Shown: one piece after another, positions 8,017 through 24,967 of the stretch | Layout of the letters: each line of letters begins with the position of its first letter | Numbering within the stretch: position 1 is the stretch's first letter | Translations under genes and position numbers: made by a program | The notes under the pieces: generated by a model | Databases searched by the model: none | Told to the model about the DNA's origin: nothing | The model's input: the letters and a program-made list of their open reading frames with translations, nothing else | Origin: Flavobacterium hibernum | GTDB taxonomy: Bacteria; Bacteroidota; Bacteroidia; Flavobacteriales; Flavobacteriaceae | Direction: 5' to 3' | Assembly: GCF_000832125.1 (NCBI RefSeq) | Contig: NZ_JPRK01000008.1 | Span: 62,001 to 126,000, forward strand | Length of the DNA stretch: 64,000 bases

Positions 8017-9441
8017 ATGCCTCGAAGATTATTTTTTAAAAATTTTCGTCTTCCTAATGTTTTTGTTCTATTACTAATTGTATTATTTTCCTGTGCATTA
8101 CTAATTTGCATTAATTTTTTTACGATAAAAATACTTTCAGCCAGTAGAGCTTATGTCAATGGAGAATCACATTACTCTAAAGGACAAAAAGATGCTTCAA
8201 GACATCTTATTACATATCTCTACACCAAAGAACTCAATCATTGGAAACTGTATATCGAAAATCTAAAAATCCCACAAGGCGACGGAATTGCACGTAAAAC
8301 GCTTTTAAAAGTTGGCGATAATGAAGTAGCCCGAATTGGTTTTACTGCGGGCCGCAATCATGAAGACGATCTGGATGATCTTGTTTGGTTGTTTGTGAAT
8401 TTTAAAGAGGTTTCGTTCTTCGCAAAAGCAATTCGAGAATGGGAACAGGGCGACAATTTAATTAATGAACTTTTTATTATTGGAACACAGATAAACGCAA
8501 AAATTCAGCGTAATACATTAACACCTGCAAATCAACAAAAGTTTATAGCCAGAATTAGTAACATCAGCGATAAACTAACTATTAATGAGCGTAACTTCTC
8601 CAATACTTTGGGCGAAGGAACACGAAAAATTAAAAACTTATTAATTATAACTAATATCATTTTTGTTTTAATTATCATTCTAAGTGTCTGTACCTATTAT
8701 TTTATAATGGTAAAACGTTTACTTGTTTCAAAAAAAGAAATTGAGGTTAAAAACGAAGATTTAGTATTAGTGAATCGAGAATTAGATCGCTTTGTTTATA
8801 GTGCTTCACATGATTTAAGATCGCCCATAACTTCGTTAAAAGGCTTAATTGAAATTACGCAACTAGAAGATGATGTAAACCAAATTAAAGATTATTTGGA
8901 CTTAATGCAGCAAAGTCTCACAAAGCAAGATCAATTTATAAATGATATTATTGATTATTCTAAAAACAAGCGTAAACAAATCATCATACAACCTGTTAGC
9001 CTACGCAAATTATTTGACGAAGCGATCTCTCAATTAACACATATAGAAAACGCCAGCAGAATCATTATTAAACAAGAAATATTAACTGACGAAATTTATA
9101 GCGACGGATTACGCTTAAAAATAATTATTGGTAATCTAATCTCTAATGCTATAAAATATGCCGATACTAATAAGCAGGAAATGTTTATCAATATTAAAAC
9201 ATATACTACCGAGGGTGCCCACAAAATTGAAGTTGCCGATAATGGAATTGGAATTAAGGAGGAATATAAGGAATCTATTTTCGAAATGTATTTTGGAACA
9301 AACAAAAATAAGGGCTCAGGATTGGGCTTATACATTGTAAAAGAAGCCGTTGAAAATATTAAAGGAAATATAACTGTAGTTTCTGAAAAAACTATTGGCA
9401 GCAAATTCATCGTAACAATCCCTAAAACACATGGAGTTTAA
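8017..9441 (+). CDS. Membrane sensor histidine kinase
   Basis: 474 residues. A transmembrane segment at about 14-38 and another at about 207-231 enclose an extracytoplasmic sensor region of about 165 residues. HisKA follows with the phospho-acceptor H265 in SASHDLRSPITSLKG. The HATPase domain has the N box at N373/N377, the G1 box DNGIGI at 408-413 and the G2 box GSGLGL at 433-438. It autophosphorylates in response to an unknown signal. Its last codons overlap the start codon of a response regulator by 11 bases, the usual sign of translational coupling, but that regulator is interrupted by a stop codon. Confidence 0.95.
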   Translation: MPRRLFFKNFRLPNVFVLLLIVLFSCALLICINFFTIKILSASRAYVNGESHYSKGQKDASRHLITYLYTKELNHWKLYIENLKIPQGDGIARKTLLKVGDNEVARIGFTAGRNHEDDLDDLVWLFVNFKEVSFFAKAIREWEQGDNLINELFIIGTQINAKIQRNTLTPANQQKFIARISNISDKLTINERNFSNTLGEGTRKIKNLLIITNIIFVLIIILSVCTYYFIMVKRLLVSKKEIEVKNEDLVLVNRELDRFVYSASHDLRSPITSLKGLIEITQLEDDVNQIKDYLDLMQQSLTKQDQFINDIIDYSKNKRKQIIIQPVSLRKLFDEAISQLTHIENASRIIIKQEILTDEIYSDGLRLKIIIGNLISNAIKYADTNKQEMFINIKTYTTEGAHKIEVADNGIGIKEEYKESIFEMYFGTNKNKGSGLGLYIVKEAVENIKGNITVVSEKTIGSKFIVTIPKTHGV

Positions 9442-21132: not shown

Positions 21133-21160
21133 TTGTAATTCAAATTTTCTTATAACTTTG
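21133..21160 (+). promoter_or_regulatory. Promoter of the XrtN operon
   Basis: TTG at 21133-21135, a 17-base spacer and TAACTTTG at 21153-21160: an exact match to the Flavobacterium consensus TTG-N17+-TAnnTTTG. It ends 31 bases before the VIT-protein start codon. The rest of the 408-base gap from acnB holds nothing else that I could identify. Confidence 0.7.
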
Positions 21161-21191
21161 TAATTCAAAGTACTTTTAAATAAATACAACT

Positions 21192-23687
21192 ATGAAAAAC
21201 AAATTAGATCTTTTTAAAAATTACACTCAAAAAACCGGAGTCACAATTAGTTTAGCAGTAGCCACCTTTAGTACTATCTTACTAATAAGCTCCCTTTCTT
21301 GCAAAAAAATGTTTTTTTACAATTTCGACTCCATTGTAATCATAAGCTTGGTGATTGAATTTATTTATGGAGCCAGCCTTTCCTTTATGATTCTAAGGGA
21401 TAAAGAACGATACATTCATTTAACTCCATTTTTGATTTTGAACTGGTTTATTGGATGTTTTTGCTTAAATATTTTCATTCCTGTTTTCAATGATTTACCA
21501 ATATGGGTTTATTTCGCAACGTTGGCCTTTTGCTTATCTAATTTCTTCATTTATAGAAATTCAGAAGACGAATACAACATTTCGATTCCGCTTTTCATAA
21601 ACGGTTTGTCCTTCACAATCATTTTATATTTTGCAATTTTTTTAATTCCAATAATACCCGTTTCCTTTGCTGCTATACTAGCTTTAGGAATGGGCTTTTA
21701 TGGATTAGTTCCGGCGATAGTACTTATTATTCATTCACTAACAATTATTAGGCATTTATCTCACAACAGAAATTATTCCCTTTCATTTGGCGCAGGATTC
21801 TTAATTGTATTAGTCGGATTGACAATATTCACCATTGGCTTAAGTCTCGAAAGCAATAAAATTGCCAAAGTCAATGCCTTAAACTCTTTCAGCAGCGATA
21901 GTGATTTACCTAACCATATAGCAATTTCGCAAAACTTAAAACCTAACTTTTTTAATGAAATTCTCTTAAAAAAAGGTATTATCTATGTTCCGCTACACGA
22001 TATATTCAGACTTGGAGGATTTGATTCTTTCGGAACGAAACAATTCAATGAAAGAAAAACGCACAACCCTTTTATAGCTATTGCTTATTTATTCTGTCAT
22101 GATCTCGATTTAAGCAGTGATGAACGTATAAATATTTTGAAGTCAAATTTTGATAAAAGATTAGAAACTGAAGAGCAACTTTGGAGCGGTGAGGATTTAG
22201 TAACAAAAAGTATTAAAGAAGATGTGAAAATTTATGCAGATGCTCGTTTAGCTTATACCGAAATCACGATGCAAATTGCCAGTACTAAAGATTCGTCGCT
22301 CGACAAAGAAGCAATTTACTCTTTTCAGCTACCCGAAGGCTCAGTTGCAACTTCTCTATCGTTATGGGTTAATGGAATCGAACGAAAAGGAGTATTAACA
22401 ACTAAGGAAAAGGCTCAAGCCGCTTACAAGCAAATTGTTGGAGTCGAAAGTCGTGATCCTTCTTTAATGCAATGGAAAGAAGGAAACAAAGTCGTAGTAC
22501 GCGTTTTTCCCATCAATTTTAAAACTCCAAGAACTTTTAAATGCGGTTTTACAACTCCTTTACAAGTCGAAGATAATGAAATGAAGTACAAAAGTCTTTC
22601 TATAAAAGGACCAAACATTTCAAATGCCGAAACTATTTCGAGAATTGAAACTGTGGGGAATGCAAAAATAAAAACCACTAAAGATTTCGAACTTACCAAA
22701 CACTATTACATTAACCAATCTGAAGGATTAGACGACTGGGAAGCTTTTGTACCACTAACAAAAAATACAAAATCAAATTCGTTTGCCTGGAAAGACAAAA
22801 TTTATGAAATAAGAGACATCAGTAAATCAGTGGTTCCCTTTAAGCCTTCAGAAATCATTTTAGATTTAAATAGCAGTTGGACAATCAAACAAATTGAATC
22901 TTTTGTCAACCTGAACAAAAAGAATGTGTTTGTTTTTTTAAACGGCAAAAAAACTGCTATTAATAAAGAAAACCTGAGAGCTATTGAATTGGATTTTGAG
23001 GATTTACAATATTCATTGTTGCCTCTTTATAAAATTACACCAAATAGTTTAATTGTTACAAAATGCGGTTCATTTTCGGCCAATTTTGAAGAGCTTGAGG
23101 ATTCTGATTATCTAAAAAAAATAAAAACAGAAACAAAACAGCGAAATCTAAAAGTAATTAACATCTCGTCAGATATTAATCCGTTTTGGCAAACGGCGAA
23201 AGAACAGAAATATGTAGATTACTTTCAGACCAGTATTACAGATTGCTTGAAATTAATCAACCAAAATCAATTTATACTGTACAAAACCGAAAAAAACACA
23301 GTTAATATTGAGCCTGCTCATATCTCGATTACTGAAAATCTAAAAACGGACTCTCTTAAAAGCAAAGGGCCAGATCACATTTATAGAATGTATGCTTTTG
23401 GAAAAGTTCTGGAGGAACAAATTAAAATACAAAATGAAACTTTAGCAAATAATCAATATGTTGATTTAGCCAAAGATGCCAACATTGTTACGCCTATTTC
23501 ATCACTAATTGTTCTAGAAACCGATGAAGATTACAAAAACAACGGAATTGAGAAAAACGTCAATACTTTAGGAAATGCATCAATCAACAATGACGGAGCG
23601 GTGCCGGAACCACACGAATGGTTATTAATTATTATTGGCTCTACAATTCTGTTTTTCTATTATCGAAAATCAAAACAAACGATTTAA
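21192..23687 (+). CDS. XrtN-system VIT-domain membrane protein with PEP-CTERM-like sorting tail
   Basis: 831 residues. The first 220 hold about six or seven transmembrane helices. A VIT (inter-alpha-trypsin-like) domain lies at about 325-450, with YADARLAYTEITMQI, FQLPEGSVATSLSLWVNG and ERKGVLTTKEKAQAAYKQIV. The C-terminus has the tripartite sorting form: PEP at about residue 805 (VPEPHEW), a hydrophobic helix LLIIIGSTILFFYY and a basic end RKSKQTI. The downstream gene, overlapping by one base, encodes the exosortase that should recognise this tail. This matches the two-gene XrtN system known in Bacteroidota. What the processed protein does is unknown. Confidence 0.88.
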   Translation: MKNKLDLFKNYTQKTGVTISLAVATFSTILLISSLSCKKMFFYNFDSIVIISLVIEFIYGASLSFMILRDKERYIHLTPFLILNWFIGCFCLNIFIPVFNDLPIWVYFATLAFCLSNFFIYRNSEDEYNISIPLFINGLSFTIILYFAIFLIPIIPVSFAAILALGMGFYGLVPAIVLIIHSLTIIRHLSHNRNYSLSFGAGFLIVLVGLTIFTIGLSLESNKIAKVNALNSFSSDSDLPNHIAISQNLKPNFFNEILLKKGIIYVPLHDIFRLGGFDSFGTKQFNERKTHNPFIAIAYLFCHDLDLSSDERINILKSNFDKRLETEEQLWSGEDLVTKSIKEDVKIYADARLAYTEITMQIASTKDSSLDKEAIYSFQLPEGSVATSLSLWVNGIERKGVLTTKEKAQAAYKQIVGVESRDPSLMQWKEGNKVVVRVFPINFKTPRTFKCGFTTPLQVEDNEMKYKSLSIKGPNISNAETISRIETVGNAKIKTTKDFELTKHYYINQSEGLDDWEAFVPLTKNTKSNSFAWKDKIYEIRDISKSVVPFKPSEIILDLNSSWTIKQIESFVNLNKKNVFVFLNGKKTAINKENLRAIELDFEDLQYSLLPLYKITPNSLIVTKCGSFSANFEELEDSDYLKKIKTETKQRNLKVINISSDINPFWQTAKEQKYVDYFQTSITDCLKLINQNQFILYKTEKNTVNIEPAHISITENLKTDSLKSKGPDHIYRMYAFGKVLEEQIKIQNETLANNQYVDLAKDANIVTPISSLIVLETDEDYKNNGIEKNVNTLGNASINNDGAVPEPHEWLLIIIGSTILFFYYRKSKQTI

Positions 23688-24925
23688 TGCATAACTTCAT
23701 TATTCAACATTCTAAAAAGATTGCTCTAATTATTTTAGGTTGCCTTCTGGCAATCAACTATATTATTATAGTAAACGGAATTAACAGTAATCTTTTTGGA
23801 ATTTTATTTTCGATACTATTATTTCTAATTGGAGGTAGAAAAACTTCCTTTAATATGAATTACCCCCTTTTGGGATTAATTTTTCTATTAGAATTTATCA
23901 GTTTTCGTTTGCACACCAAATCCATACATTTTTTAGCTTTATCTCTATTTGTCTGTTTTGTATATTATAGTTTTACGCAACGATTTTCGTTTATTTCTTT
24001 TATCTGTATTCTGTTATTTTCCTCGCTCTTTAATACGTTTTTTGATTATCTAACTGTAGAAATTAAGCAAACACTTTGTTATAGTGTTTATTTAACTTTG
24101 AAAAACTTTATTCATTTTGATAAAATTGAAGGTGTAAATTTTTACATCAATAACGCAAAAATCACAATAGATACTGCCTGTATGGGATTGTCTATGTTTA
24201 AAACCGGTTTACTTGCCGGTGCTTTTTTACTAACTCTAGAAGAGCGAAAACAACAAAAATACTTCAACCTTAAACAAATTTTATTGTTTTGCTTTTTCGT
24301 CATTCTATTAAATATTATTTCGAATTATTTCAGAATTATAACTTTGATTTTATTTAATTGCACCGAAGAGAATACTTTTCACCATACTATTGGTTTGCTT
24401 TGTTTTGTATTTTATCAAATGGCACCAATGTTATTTTTAATTCGTTTTTTTAAACCTTCAAAAGAAACCATTACAGATTCTAAACCTGAATATTTAAAAT
24501 TGTTACCGTTTATTACAGCAATAATAACTCTTATTGCAACAAGTCTGGAAATCCAAAAAGATCAAGATCATAAATTGCTTGATAATATAAACCCTACTTA
24601 TAATACGAGTAAAGGAATTTGGGTTAACAAAGAGGTTTTTAAAATCGTAACTCCAAAAAAACTTATTTATATAAAAACTCCATCGCACAACCCCTTAGTT
24701 TGCTGGACTGGAAACGGATATAAAGTGATCGAATCAAAAATTATTGAAAAGAACAATGAAGAAATCTGTTTTGTGAGAATGGAGAAAAACGGCGTGCAAT
24801 ATTTTTCGTATTGGTGGTATGAATGCAATAATAAAAAGTACACTTCTCTTATTGAAGTTTCACTAATAAAACTCTTTTACAATAAACCCATTCGGCTTAT
24901 AAATGAAACGAATAAAGCACAATAA
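23687..24925 (+). CDS. xrtN: Exosortase N (XrtN) with C-terminal EpsI-like domain
   Basis: 412 residues. The start ATG at 23687 overlaps the previous stop (TAATG), giving MHNFIIQHSK. An upstream alternative at 23618 lies inside the preceding gene. About eight hydrophobic helices form the membrane protease core. The conserved catalytic triad of exosortases is visible: C165 (DTACMG), R216 (NYFRI) and H232/H233 (FHHTIG). Residues 295-405 lie outside the membrane core and resemble the EpsI domain found fused to some exosortases (HNPLVCWTGNGYKV, then FSYWWYECNN). It cleaves PEP-CTERM-like tails, presumably that of the VIT protein encoded just upstream. Confidence 0.9.
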   Translation: MHNFIIQHSKKIALIILGCLLAINYIIIVNGINSNLFGILFSILLFLIGGRKTSFNMNYPLLGLIFLLEFISFRLHTKSIHFLALSLFVCFVYYSFTQRFSFISFICILLFSSLFNTFFDYLTVEIKQTLCYSVYLTLKNFIHFDKIEGVNFYINNAKITIDTACMGLSMFKTGLLAGAFLLTLEERKQQKYFNLKQILLFCFFVILLNIISNYFRIITLILFNCTEENTFHHTIGLLCFVFYQMAPMLFLIRFFKPSKETITDSKPEYLKLLPFITAIITLIATSLEIQKDQDHKLLDNINPTYNTSKGIWVNKEVFKIVTPKKLIYIKTPSHNPLVCWTGNGYKVIESKIIEKNNEEICFVRMEKNGVQYFSYWWYECNNKKYTSLIEVSLIKLFYNKPIRLINETNKAQ

Positions 24926-24967
24926 AAAAAGCCTAACAGATCTTAAAATCTATTAGGCTCTTTTTTC
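24922..24967. terminator. Bidirectional terminator between xrtN and moxR genes
   Basis: An A run, an inverted repeat GCCTAACAGA/TCTATTAGGC with a short loop, and a T run lie between two convergent genes. Confidence 0.85.

Follow-up and report, generated by a model that had tools for sequence, protein, structure and literature searches.

PEP-CTERM proteins, as the available text of PMC1569441 describes them, end in a PEP motif, about 14 hydrophobic residues and a basic C-terminal end, with a median of eight such tails per genome; the same text names three motifs for the EpsH family of exosortases (C-x-G, N-x-x-R and H-x-x-x-G) and described EpsI-like regions on some EpsH proteins already in 2006. 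Closer to our subject are two systems whose substrate is a polytopic VIT-domain protein: exosortase N (XrtN) with its XrtN-system VIT protein, and XrtK with MSEP-CTERM (TIGR04287/TIGR04286). Here we analyse a VIT-xrtN unit of Flavobacterium hibernum, lying in a window of 64,000 nucleotides (the whole stretch of DNA analysed; C8:62001-126000 of the 5.28 Mb host genome, code G000). Both families are already catalogued in NCBIfam, and the pair is a further intact case of a known two-gene system, adjacent, in the same order and with the same tail, nothing being different in kind. What is new is a probable regulon link, a predicted heavy-chain-like fold and a correlation in one genome without XrtN; in the open-licence PubMed Central literature we found nothing relevant on XrtN, nothing on MSEP-CTERM and nothing joining an exosortase with a VIT domain. 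Our preferred reading, to which we give an even chance, is that of an HTH_34-regulated envelope regulon that uses XrtN to trim a heavy-chain-like inner-membrane protein at its C terminus.

An earlier note, made from the letters of the DNA, had proposed a complete two-gene XrtN unit with a one-base overlap. Both open reading frames are where it placed them, and hidden Markov model (HMM) scores lie far over the curated cut-offs. The VIT protein scores 826.9 bits against TIGR04477 (sorted_by_XrtN; model positions 3-821 of 822, cut-off 250) and 48.9 bits against Pfam VIT PF08487 (residues 345-450, cut-off 26.5), while the exosortase scores 332.2 bits against TIGR04476 (positions 4-406 of 406, cut-off 200) and also passes the cut-offs of the general exosortase/archaeosortase model TIGR04178 and of Exosortase_EpsH. 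The overlap is the base at 23687, common to the TAA stop of the VIT gene (23685-23687) and the xrtN ATG.

XrtN is above cut-off in 49 of 398 Flavobacterium genomes; of 199 genomes drawn from the family at large, the host alone has it. The VIT protein is above cut-off in 50 of the same 398 and in 5 of 395 phylum-wide genomes, with G694 the one outside the family (matches below cut-off, mostly of the VIT domain alone, occur in 71 further genomes of the 395). All 49 XrtN-bearing genus genomes have the VIT protein, and its gene stands directly upstream of xrtN at all 51 fetched XrtN loci as well as in the window, truncated near a contig start in L079. The named relatives belong to Flavobacterium and Flavobacteriaceae; F. 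saccharophilum DSM 1811 is one carrier of the unit. An aconitase-like gene upstream and a MoxR-like gene downstream (names by eye) flank the unit at 38 of the 51 loci, with one of the two at 5 and neither at 8, some loci being cut by contig ends; since most loci share these flanks, the unit's place is mostly inherited. The gene after xrtN runs convergent, leaving a unit of two genes, and by eye, with no scan run, we recognised no exopolysaccharide gene among its immediate neighbours.

The note's claim of many membrane helices in the VIT protein came down to seven N-terminal ones, predicted by hydropathy and by AlphaFold2 (AF2). The loops preceding TM2, TM4 and TM6 have zero Lys/Arg, so the N-terminus is predicted to be inside and the VIT part outside. 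The PEP-hydrophobic-basic tail is likewise present, in agreement with the definition in the available text of PMC1569441. In alignments of 52 rows (matches above 80 bits only, a limit that dropped a 16.7-bit XrtN match in L093 and the MSEP-type VIT matches of L125 and L127), VPEP and E809 occur in all 52 proteins and W810 in 51, with residue 808 His in 48 and Tyr in 4. Residues 764-810 have the highest mean column conservation of eight segments compared (0.935, against 0.859 for the VIT domain), and residues 218-335 average 0.753. A profile of 14 XrtN-type tails found one place in the host genome (E 6.6e-32), as expected from the claim of a single substrate; the next match (E 0.87) covered post-motif positions only, this profile being the one used and no general PEP-CTERM model having been run. 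One XrtN-type tail, counted with this profile, compares with the median of eight for PEP-CTERM/EpsH genomes. Ordinary cargo, as far as the available source goes, usually if not absolutely has a signal peptide, where the VIT protein has seven helices. The note's reading of a complete XrtN unit with a polytopic, apparently sole substrate holds, but the design is not unique, XrtK/MSEP-CTERM being a second, homologous one.

Elsewhere in the host genome, C11 encodes a second VIT-type match of 1084 aa (L126:3487-6741, -) with a signal-like start and no PEP tail; its TSLIVLE stretch resembles SSLIVLE of the XrtN-system VIT protein.

On the side of the enzyme, Cys165, Arg216 and His232/233 had been singled out. 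The first three are identical in 52 of 52 aligned XrtN proteins, within C165-x-G167, N213-x-x-R216 and H232-x-x-x-G236, each of which is likewise found in all 52; position 233 does not share this invariance (His 42, Tyr 9, Glu 1). The exosortase motifs and VPEP survive even in L122, whose XrtN and VIT proteins are 24.5% and 31% identical to those of the window. The converse case is G358, the only one of the 50 VIT-bearing genus genomes without an XrtN match. Its VIT protein (L153:2971-5472, -) is full length at 833 aa, with the tail ..DDVPGSPLNYQW.. in place of VPEPHEW: PEP is gone, and the hydrophobic stretch and basic end are retained. Its genome lacks both an HTH_34 match and an exact match to the operator (see below). 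G358, one draft genome, thus shows what one would expect were PEP retained for XrtN alone.

In its model, the predicted extracytoplasmic part of the VIT protein most resembles a human heavy chain. The fold library was queried with the AF2 model of the VIT protein (predicted local distance difference test score, pLDDT, 56.8; alpha/beta domain residues 531-720 with block means of 53-88). In a Foldseek search of the PDB, the top three matches were human inter-alpha-inhibitor heavy chain 1 (ITIH1; E 1.6e-15 to 2.4e-15), and VIA also ranked heavy chain 1 best (6fpy/6fpz; Z 13.8, 405 residues at a root-mean-square deviation (rmsd) of 7.6, model residues 333-769). A PDB sequence search with the VIT protein gave ITIH4 as its sole match at E<=1 (E 0.0025, residues 350-417). 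Lower VIA rows (Ost1 and M1 aminopeptidases, Z about 10-12) mostly covered one beta-sandwich domain, and we set them aside as shared fold, not function. The AF2 model of XrtN (pLDDT 51.1, from 10 sequences of which nine are 67-79% identical to the first) was dropped as a fold-search query, and a PDB sequence search with the XrtN profile returned nothing at E<=1.

Judged from the alignment, the metal-ion-dependent adhesion site (MIDAS) of the VIT protein is degenerate. D558, equated with Asp298 of heavy chain 1 by motif and not by a printed structural alignment, is present in 51 of 51 proteins; position 560 is Asn in 46 of 51, and position 562 is Asn in 24 and Ser in 23. Heavy chain 1, in the available text of PMC7170535, has Ser300 and Ser302 at its MIDAS. 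A D-x-S-x-S pattern in residues 473-763 occurs in 2 of 52 rows only, the window among them (D542-S546), and is not conserved. The same source describes a human C-terminal pro-domain, to which the bacterial C-terminal sorting signal would correspond, and a mature heavy chain whose C terminus is ester-linked to chondroitin sulfate. This parallel in C-terminal processing is meant as analogy and not as demonstrated homology of mechanism: the bacterial protein differs in being membrane-anchored and exosortase-linked, with its degenerate MIDAS, and any glycan link is conjectural.

In our preferred reading, induction would yield XrtN together with a VIT protein predicted from sequence to have seven helices with the N-terminus in, a periplasmic VIT and vWFA-like part and a PEP-helix-basic end. 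XrtN, through Cys165, Arg216 and His232, would cleave the protein at VPEP or close to it and so take off the C-terminal helix, as the invariant motifs and G358 suggest. The cut would not release the protein, because the N-terminal bundle still anchors it in the inner membrane; it would free the C terminus or pass it to a putative acceptor, glycan or lipid. The outcome would be a membrane-held periplasmic domain, its C terminus processed or covalently linked, that may help maintain the envelope. Cleavage might also be the whole of it, with XrtN a protease-like switch using water as acceptor and the freed C terminus letting the domain move or signal with nothing attached. The seven helices already hold the substrate, making attachment unneeded for retention, and the unit has just its two genes before the convergent one; yet the available text of PMC1569441 finds the EpsH motifs consistent with a transpeptidase function, and for archaeosortase ArtA a role in lipid-mediated anchoring is described (PMC7157517, available text). 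We regard cleavage without attachment as possible though doubtful.

The regulatory part of the reading starts from the promoter. The note's consensus promoter stands in so far as TTG, 17 nt and TAACTTTG fit what we take to be the Flavobacterium promoter consensus and a TAACTTTG-type promoter recurs in nearly all upstream regions examined; a sigma-70 scan did no better than chance and was uninformative (20 found, 21.6 expected). The VIT promoter holds TAACTTTGTAATTCAAAGTACTTT, in which we recognise an operator-like palindrome. Its strict form, CTTTG-N5-CAAAGTnCTTT, occurs at 50 of 52 loci in the 420 nt that precede VIT codon 20 (the pattern letters being fixed by construction), the two others being L079, with its truncated VIT gene, and L122. 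TA stands at -3/-2 in 50 of 50 loci, and TAATTCAA at -20 to -13 from the operator, outside the search pattern, has 68-94% per-base conservation over the 50. One site upstream, TTGTAATTCAA (21133-21143) repeats the operator half-site pattern and is partly conserved, possibly as a second regulator site.

With at most one mismatch, our first operator pattern finds four places in the host genome: the VIT-xrtN unit, a C15 gene and two sites at an operon on C19. The C15 gene (L155:6738-7097, +) has an exact 21-bp operator copy upstream and encodes a 100-aa membrane-like protein, which shows about three hydrophobic segments and could be assigned to no family with confidence. The C19 operon (L156:5964-8322, -) comprises the genes for a 204-aa membrane protein, the HTH_34 regulator (C19:40411-40698) and DUF4153. 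One operator stands ahead of its first gene and one separates HTH_34 from DUF4153; from this arrangement it looks autoregulated. Allowing two mismatches gave background overall (19 matches against 20 for a reversed control), and only matches with 0-1 mismatch were used.

We surveyed a general form of the operator in 80 hand-chosen genomes, in counts that ignore kinship. All 49 XrtN genomes have exact matches, 166 sites together, and so do all 20 of the genomes that have HTH_34 but no XrtN, with 57 sites; of the 11 genomes lacking HTH_34, one has a single site. A reversed-pattern control gave 6 sites over all 80 genomes. Among the 150 matches listed, from 48 genomes, 83 lie within 1500 nt of an HTH_34 gene, 30 within 400 nt upstream of VIT and 29 elsewhere, and 8 are in genomes without a listed regulator position. 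Again among the matches listed, at least two sites stand at the HTH_34 gene in 40 of the 43 genomes with a listed regulator position and one in the other 3, and 30 of the 32 genomes whose VIT position is listed have a VIT site (exceptions G206 and G587, the latter with a truncated VIT gene). For other sites we took 33 picked regions plus L155, scanning one representative of each named kind against Pfam and naming the rest by eye. The operator precedes genes resembling the Peptidase_C92 protein of L157 (12), the Coq4-like protein of L159 (4) and the MPAB-like protein of L172 (4), as well as genes for CreD, DUF1361 and small proteins that look membrane-bound. The criterion used gave no open reading frame in three regions. 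These are presumably envelope genes.

Genome comparison shows the conserved element to be associated with HTH_34 in the genomes examined, and because it overlaps the -7 element we infer repression by HTH_34 at this candidate operator. In our preferred reading an HTH_34 winged-helix protein, encoded elsewhere, would bind CTTTG-N5-CAAAG over the -7 element, as comparative genomics suggests, and probably represses VIT-xrtN, its own operon and other genes. An objection is that the element is just an extended promoter or some general stress element with no HTH_34 operator, and the regulon no functional unit: it does overlap TAACTTTG, HTH_34 binding is a prediction, and the sites stand at varied genes. 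The element extends well past the -7 box, however, with 50 of 52 VIT loci matching the whole palindrome pattern (whose letters are preset by construction in those 50), multiple sites cluster at the HTH_34 gene in most genomes with a listed position, and 10 of the 11 genomes without HTH_34 have no site, so that we consider this explanation unlikely.

The proposed regulon also connects XrtN with the XrtK system. L125 (G511) and L127 (G175) each encode an XrtK scoring 119 bits (cut-off 55), with MSEP-CTERM proteins of 798 and 921 bits respectively (cut-off 150); among the 80 chosen genomes, XrtK is above cut-off in one (G511). Common to the two systems are a polytopic VIT protein carrying a sorting signal at its C terminus, a dedicated neighbouring exosortase, the same operator and HTH_34 relatives nearby. 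The L127 pair adjoins an HTH_34 gene (60% identical to the host's), a 202-aa membrane protein (41%) and DUF4153, with exact operators before the 202-aa and DUF4153 genes. Near the L125 pair are a protein that by eye is HTH_34-like, a Peptidase_C92-like one with 60% identity to its L157 counterpart, a Coq4-like protein and DUF218. Directly before XrtK stands an operator with one mismatch (8302-8322) whose end meets the start codon; another precedes Coq4. By hhalign, MSEP-CTERM matches the XrtN VIT protein over residues 95-453, including part of the membrane region (E 7.7e-13), and the window VIT protein scores 85.5 bits against TIGR04286, under the cut-off of 150, making it a homologue and not a member. 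The XrtK system differs in having MSEP for PEP, the exosortase gene first, the regulator and partner genes in cis, and a short exosortase (166-173 aa) that has no EpsI-like tail, unlike XrtN. Since the operator is shared by L125, L127 and the VIT promoters, two exosortase/VIT pairs appear to be placed under one regulatory element, XrtK in cis and XrtN in trans.

That XrtN tail had been called EpsI-like, and several comparisons support the name, Pfam weakly. For these, 24 tails were chosen from the 52 (L121 and 27 others left out). PF11984 (DUF3485), which we take to be EpsI, is matched by 8 of the 24 (best E 0.008); no other family was hit by two or more tails. The window tail alone had no Pfam match at E<=5, so the PF11984 gathering score was not reached, and, the tail being below threshold, we use the label 'EpsI-like' only. 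Other families were matched by single tails, in one case CdiI (E 0.0013, better than any PF11984 match), which we take as chance since no other tail did. By hhalign the 24 tails align with the PF11984 protein of L193 at a probability of 92.4 (E 5e-7). H-x4-C-x4-G-aromatic occurs in 51 of 52 XrtN tails, L121 being without it, and in all four PF11984 proteins fetched from other Bacteroidota; that it marks the PF11984 family is our reading of these four sequences. The PF11984 model finds nothing in the host genome at E<=0.01, and it also misses the XrtN tail.

Several points weigh against our preferred reading. First, about 44 residues are missing in frame from the XrtN of L121 (2974-4095, -; G299), and the EpsI-like His/Cys motif with them, although that locus keeps its PEP tail and operator; the motif may be dispensable, or the L121 copy may be decaying. 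Second, the structural models are limited: that of XrtN is poor, that of the VIT protein middling, its fold match depending on the better-modelled parts, and the rmsd of 7.6 over 405 residues goes with a query TM-score of just 0.30. Third, G358 is a single draft genome, 90% complete in 320 contigs. Fourth, the distant L122 unit has no such operator, and we infer HTH_34 binding from co-occurrence only. HTH_34 is moreover common without XrtN (230 of 349 non-XrtN genus genomes), and its matches fall in two identity groups, at about 73-100% and about 60%. That the heavy-chain-like part is also cut from the helix bundle and goes to the cell surface or exopolysaccharide, like ordinary PEP-CTERM cargo, is very unlikely: PEP-CTERM systems are linked to exopolysaccharide (PMC1569441, available text) and the poorly modelled residues 216-333 could contain a cut site, but residues 218-335 are too well conserved for a simple linker and seven helices replace the usual signal peptide.

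The shared operator offers a candidate regulator, partner genes (DUF4153, Peptidase_C92, Coq4-like, CreD, DUF1361) and a way to induce the system. With one enzyme and apparently one substrate, the unit is a simple exosortase case in which to locate the cut site and the acceptor, both of which, to our knowledge, are still open for PEP-CTERM proteins. If the acceptor were a glycan, bacteria would, like animals, have VIT/vWFA-like proteins linked to polysaccharides. A further, speculative step, which we would rather doubt than believe, is a bacterial heavy-chain counterpart: an inner-membrane VIT/vWFA-like protein of the HTH_34 regulon whose exosortase-cut C terminus would be joined to polysaccharide or lipid, tying the inner membrane to the envelope matrix, with XrtN/VIT (trans) and XrtK/MSEP-CTERM (cis) as alternative regulon modules.

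Table 1. Features of the VIT-xrtN unit, in window coordinates.
Feature	Position	Strand	Details
TTG, -33-like element	21133-21135	+	inside TTGTAATTCAA (21133-21143), a degenerate second copy of the operator half-sites
TAACTTTG, -7-like element	21153-21160	+	17 nt after TTG
Operator-like palindrome	21156-21176	+	CTTTG-N5-CAAAG then TACTTT; overlaps -7 element
VIT gene (XrtN-system VIT protein)	21192-23687	+	831 aa; TIGR04477 826.9 bits, PF08487 48.9 bits
Seven predicted membrane helices	21234-21842	+	residues 15-217; hydropathy and AF2 helices
VIT domain	22197-22607	+	about residues 336-472; PF08487 345-450, AF2 strands, fold match
vWFA-like alpha/beta domain	22839-23351	+	about residues 550-720; AF2, fold match 333-769, conservation; degenerate MIDAS D558-x-N560-x-S/N562-W563
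Strongly conserved stretch before PEP	23481-23600	+	residues 764-803
VPEPHEW sorting motif	23601-23621	+	residues 804-810
C-terminal hydrophobic helix and basic tail	23622-23684	+	residues 811-831
Exosortase N gene (xrtN)	23687-24925	+	412 aa; TIGR04476 332.2 bits
Cys165 codon	24179-24181	+	invariant in alignment
Arg216 codon	24332-24334	+	invariant in alignment
His232 codon	24380-24382	+	invariant in alignment
EpsI-like C-terminal region	24614-24922	+	residues 310-412; H334-x4-C339-x4-G344-Y345, W376-W377-Y378
Terminator-like inverted repeat	24924-24965	.	19-pair stem, between convergent xrtN and next gene

Another exosortase family is known from the same genus: xrtF of Flavobacterium johnsoniae is important for surface colonisation and biofilm, and its substrates are expected to be dissimilar from PEP-CTERM proteins (PMC10936215, available text). 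In the host genome, C5 encodes a second exosortase-family protein of 178 aa (L154:4977-5513, -; TIGR04178 52.5 bits), adjoined by a gene for a small membrane-like protein (L154:4541-4987, -); the two are perhaps a candidate XrtF pair.

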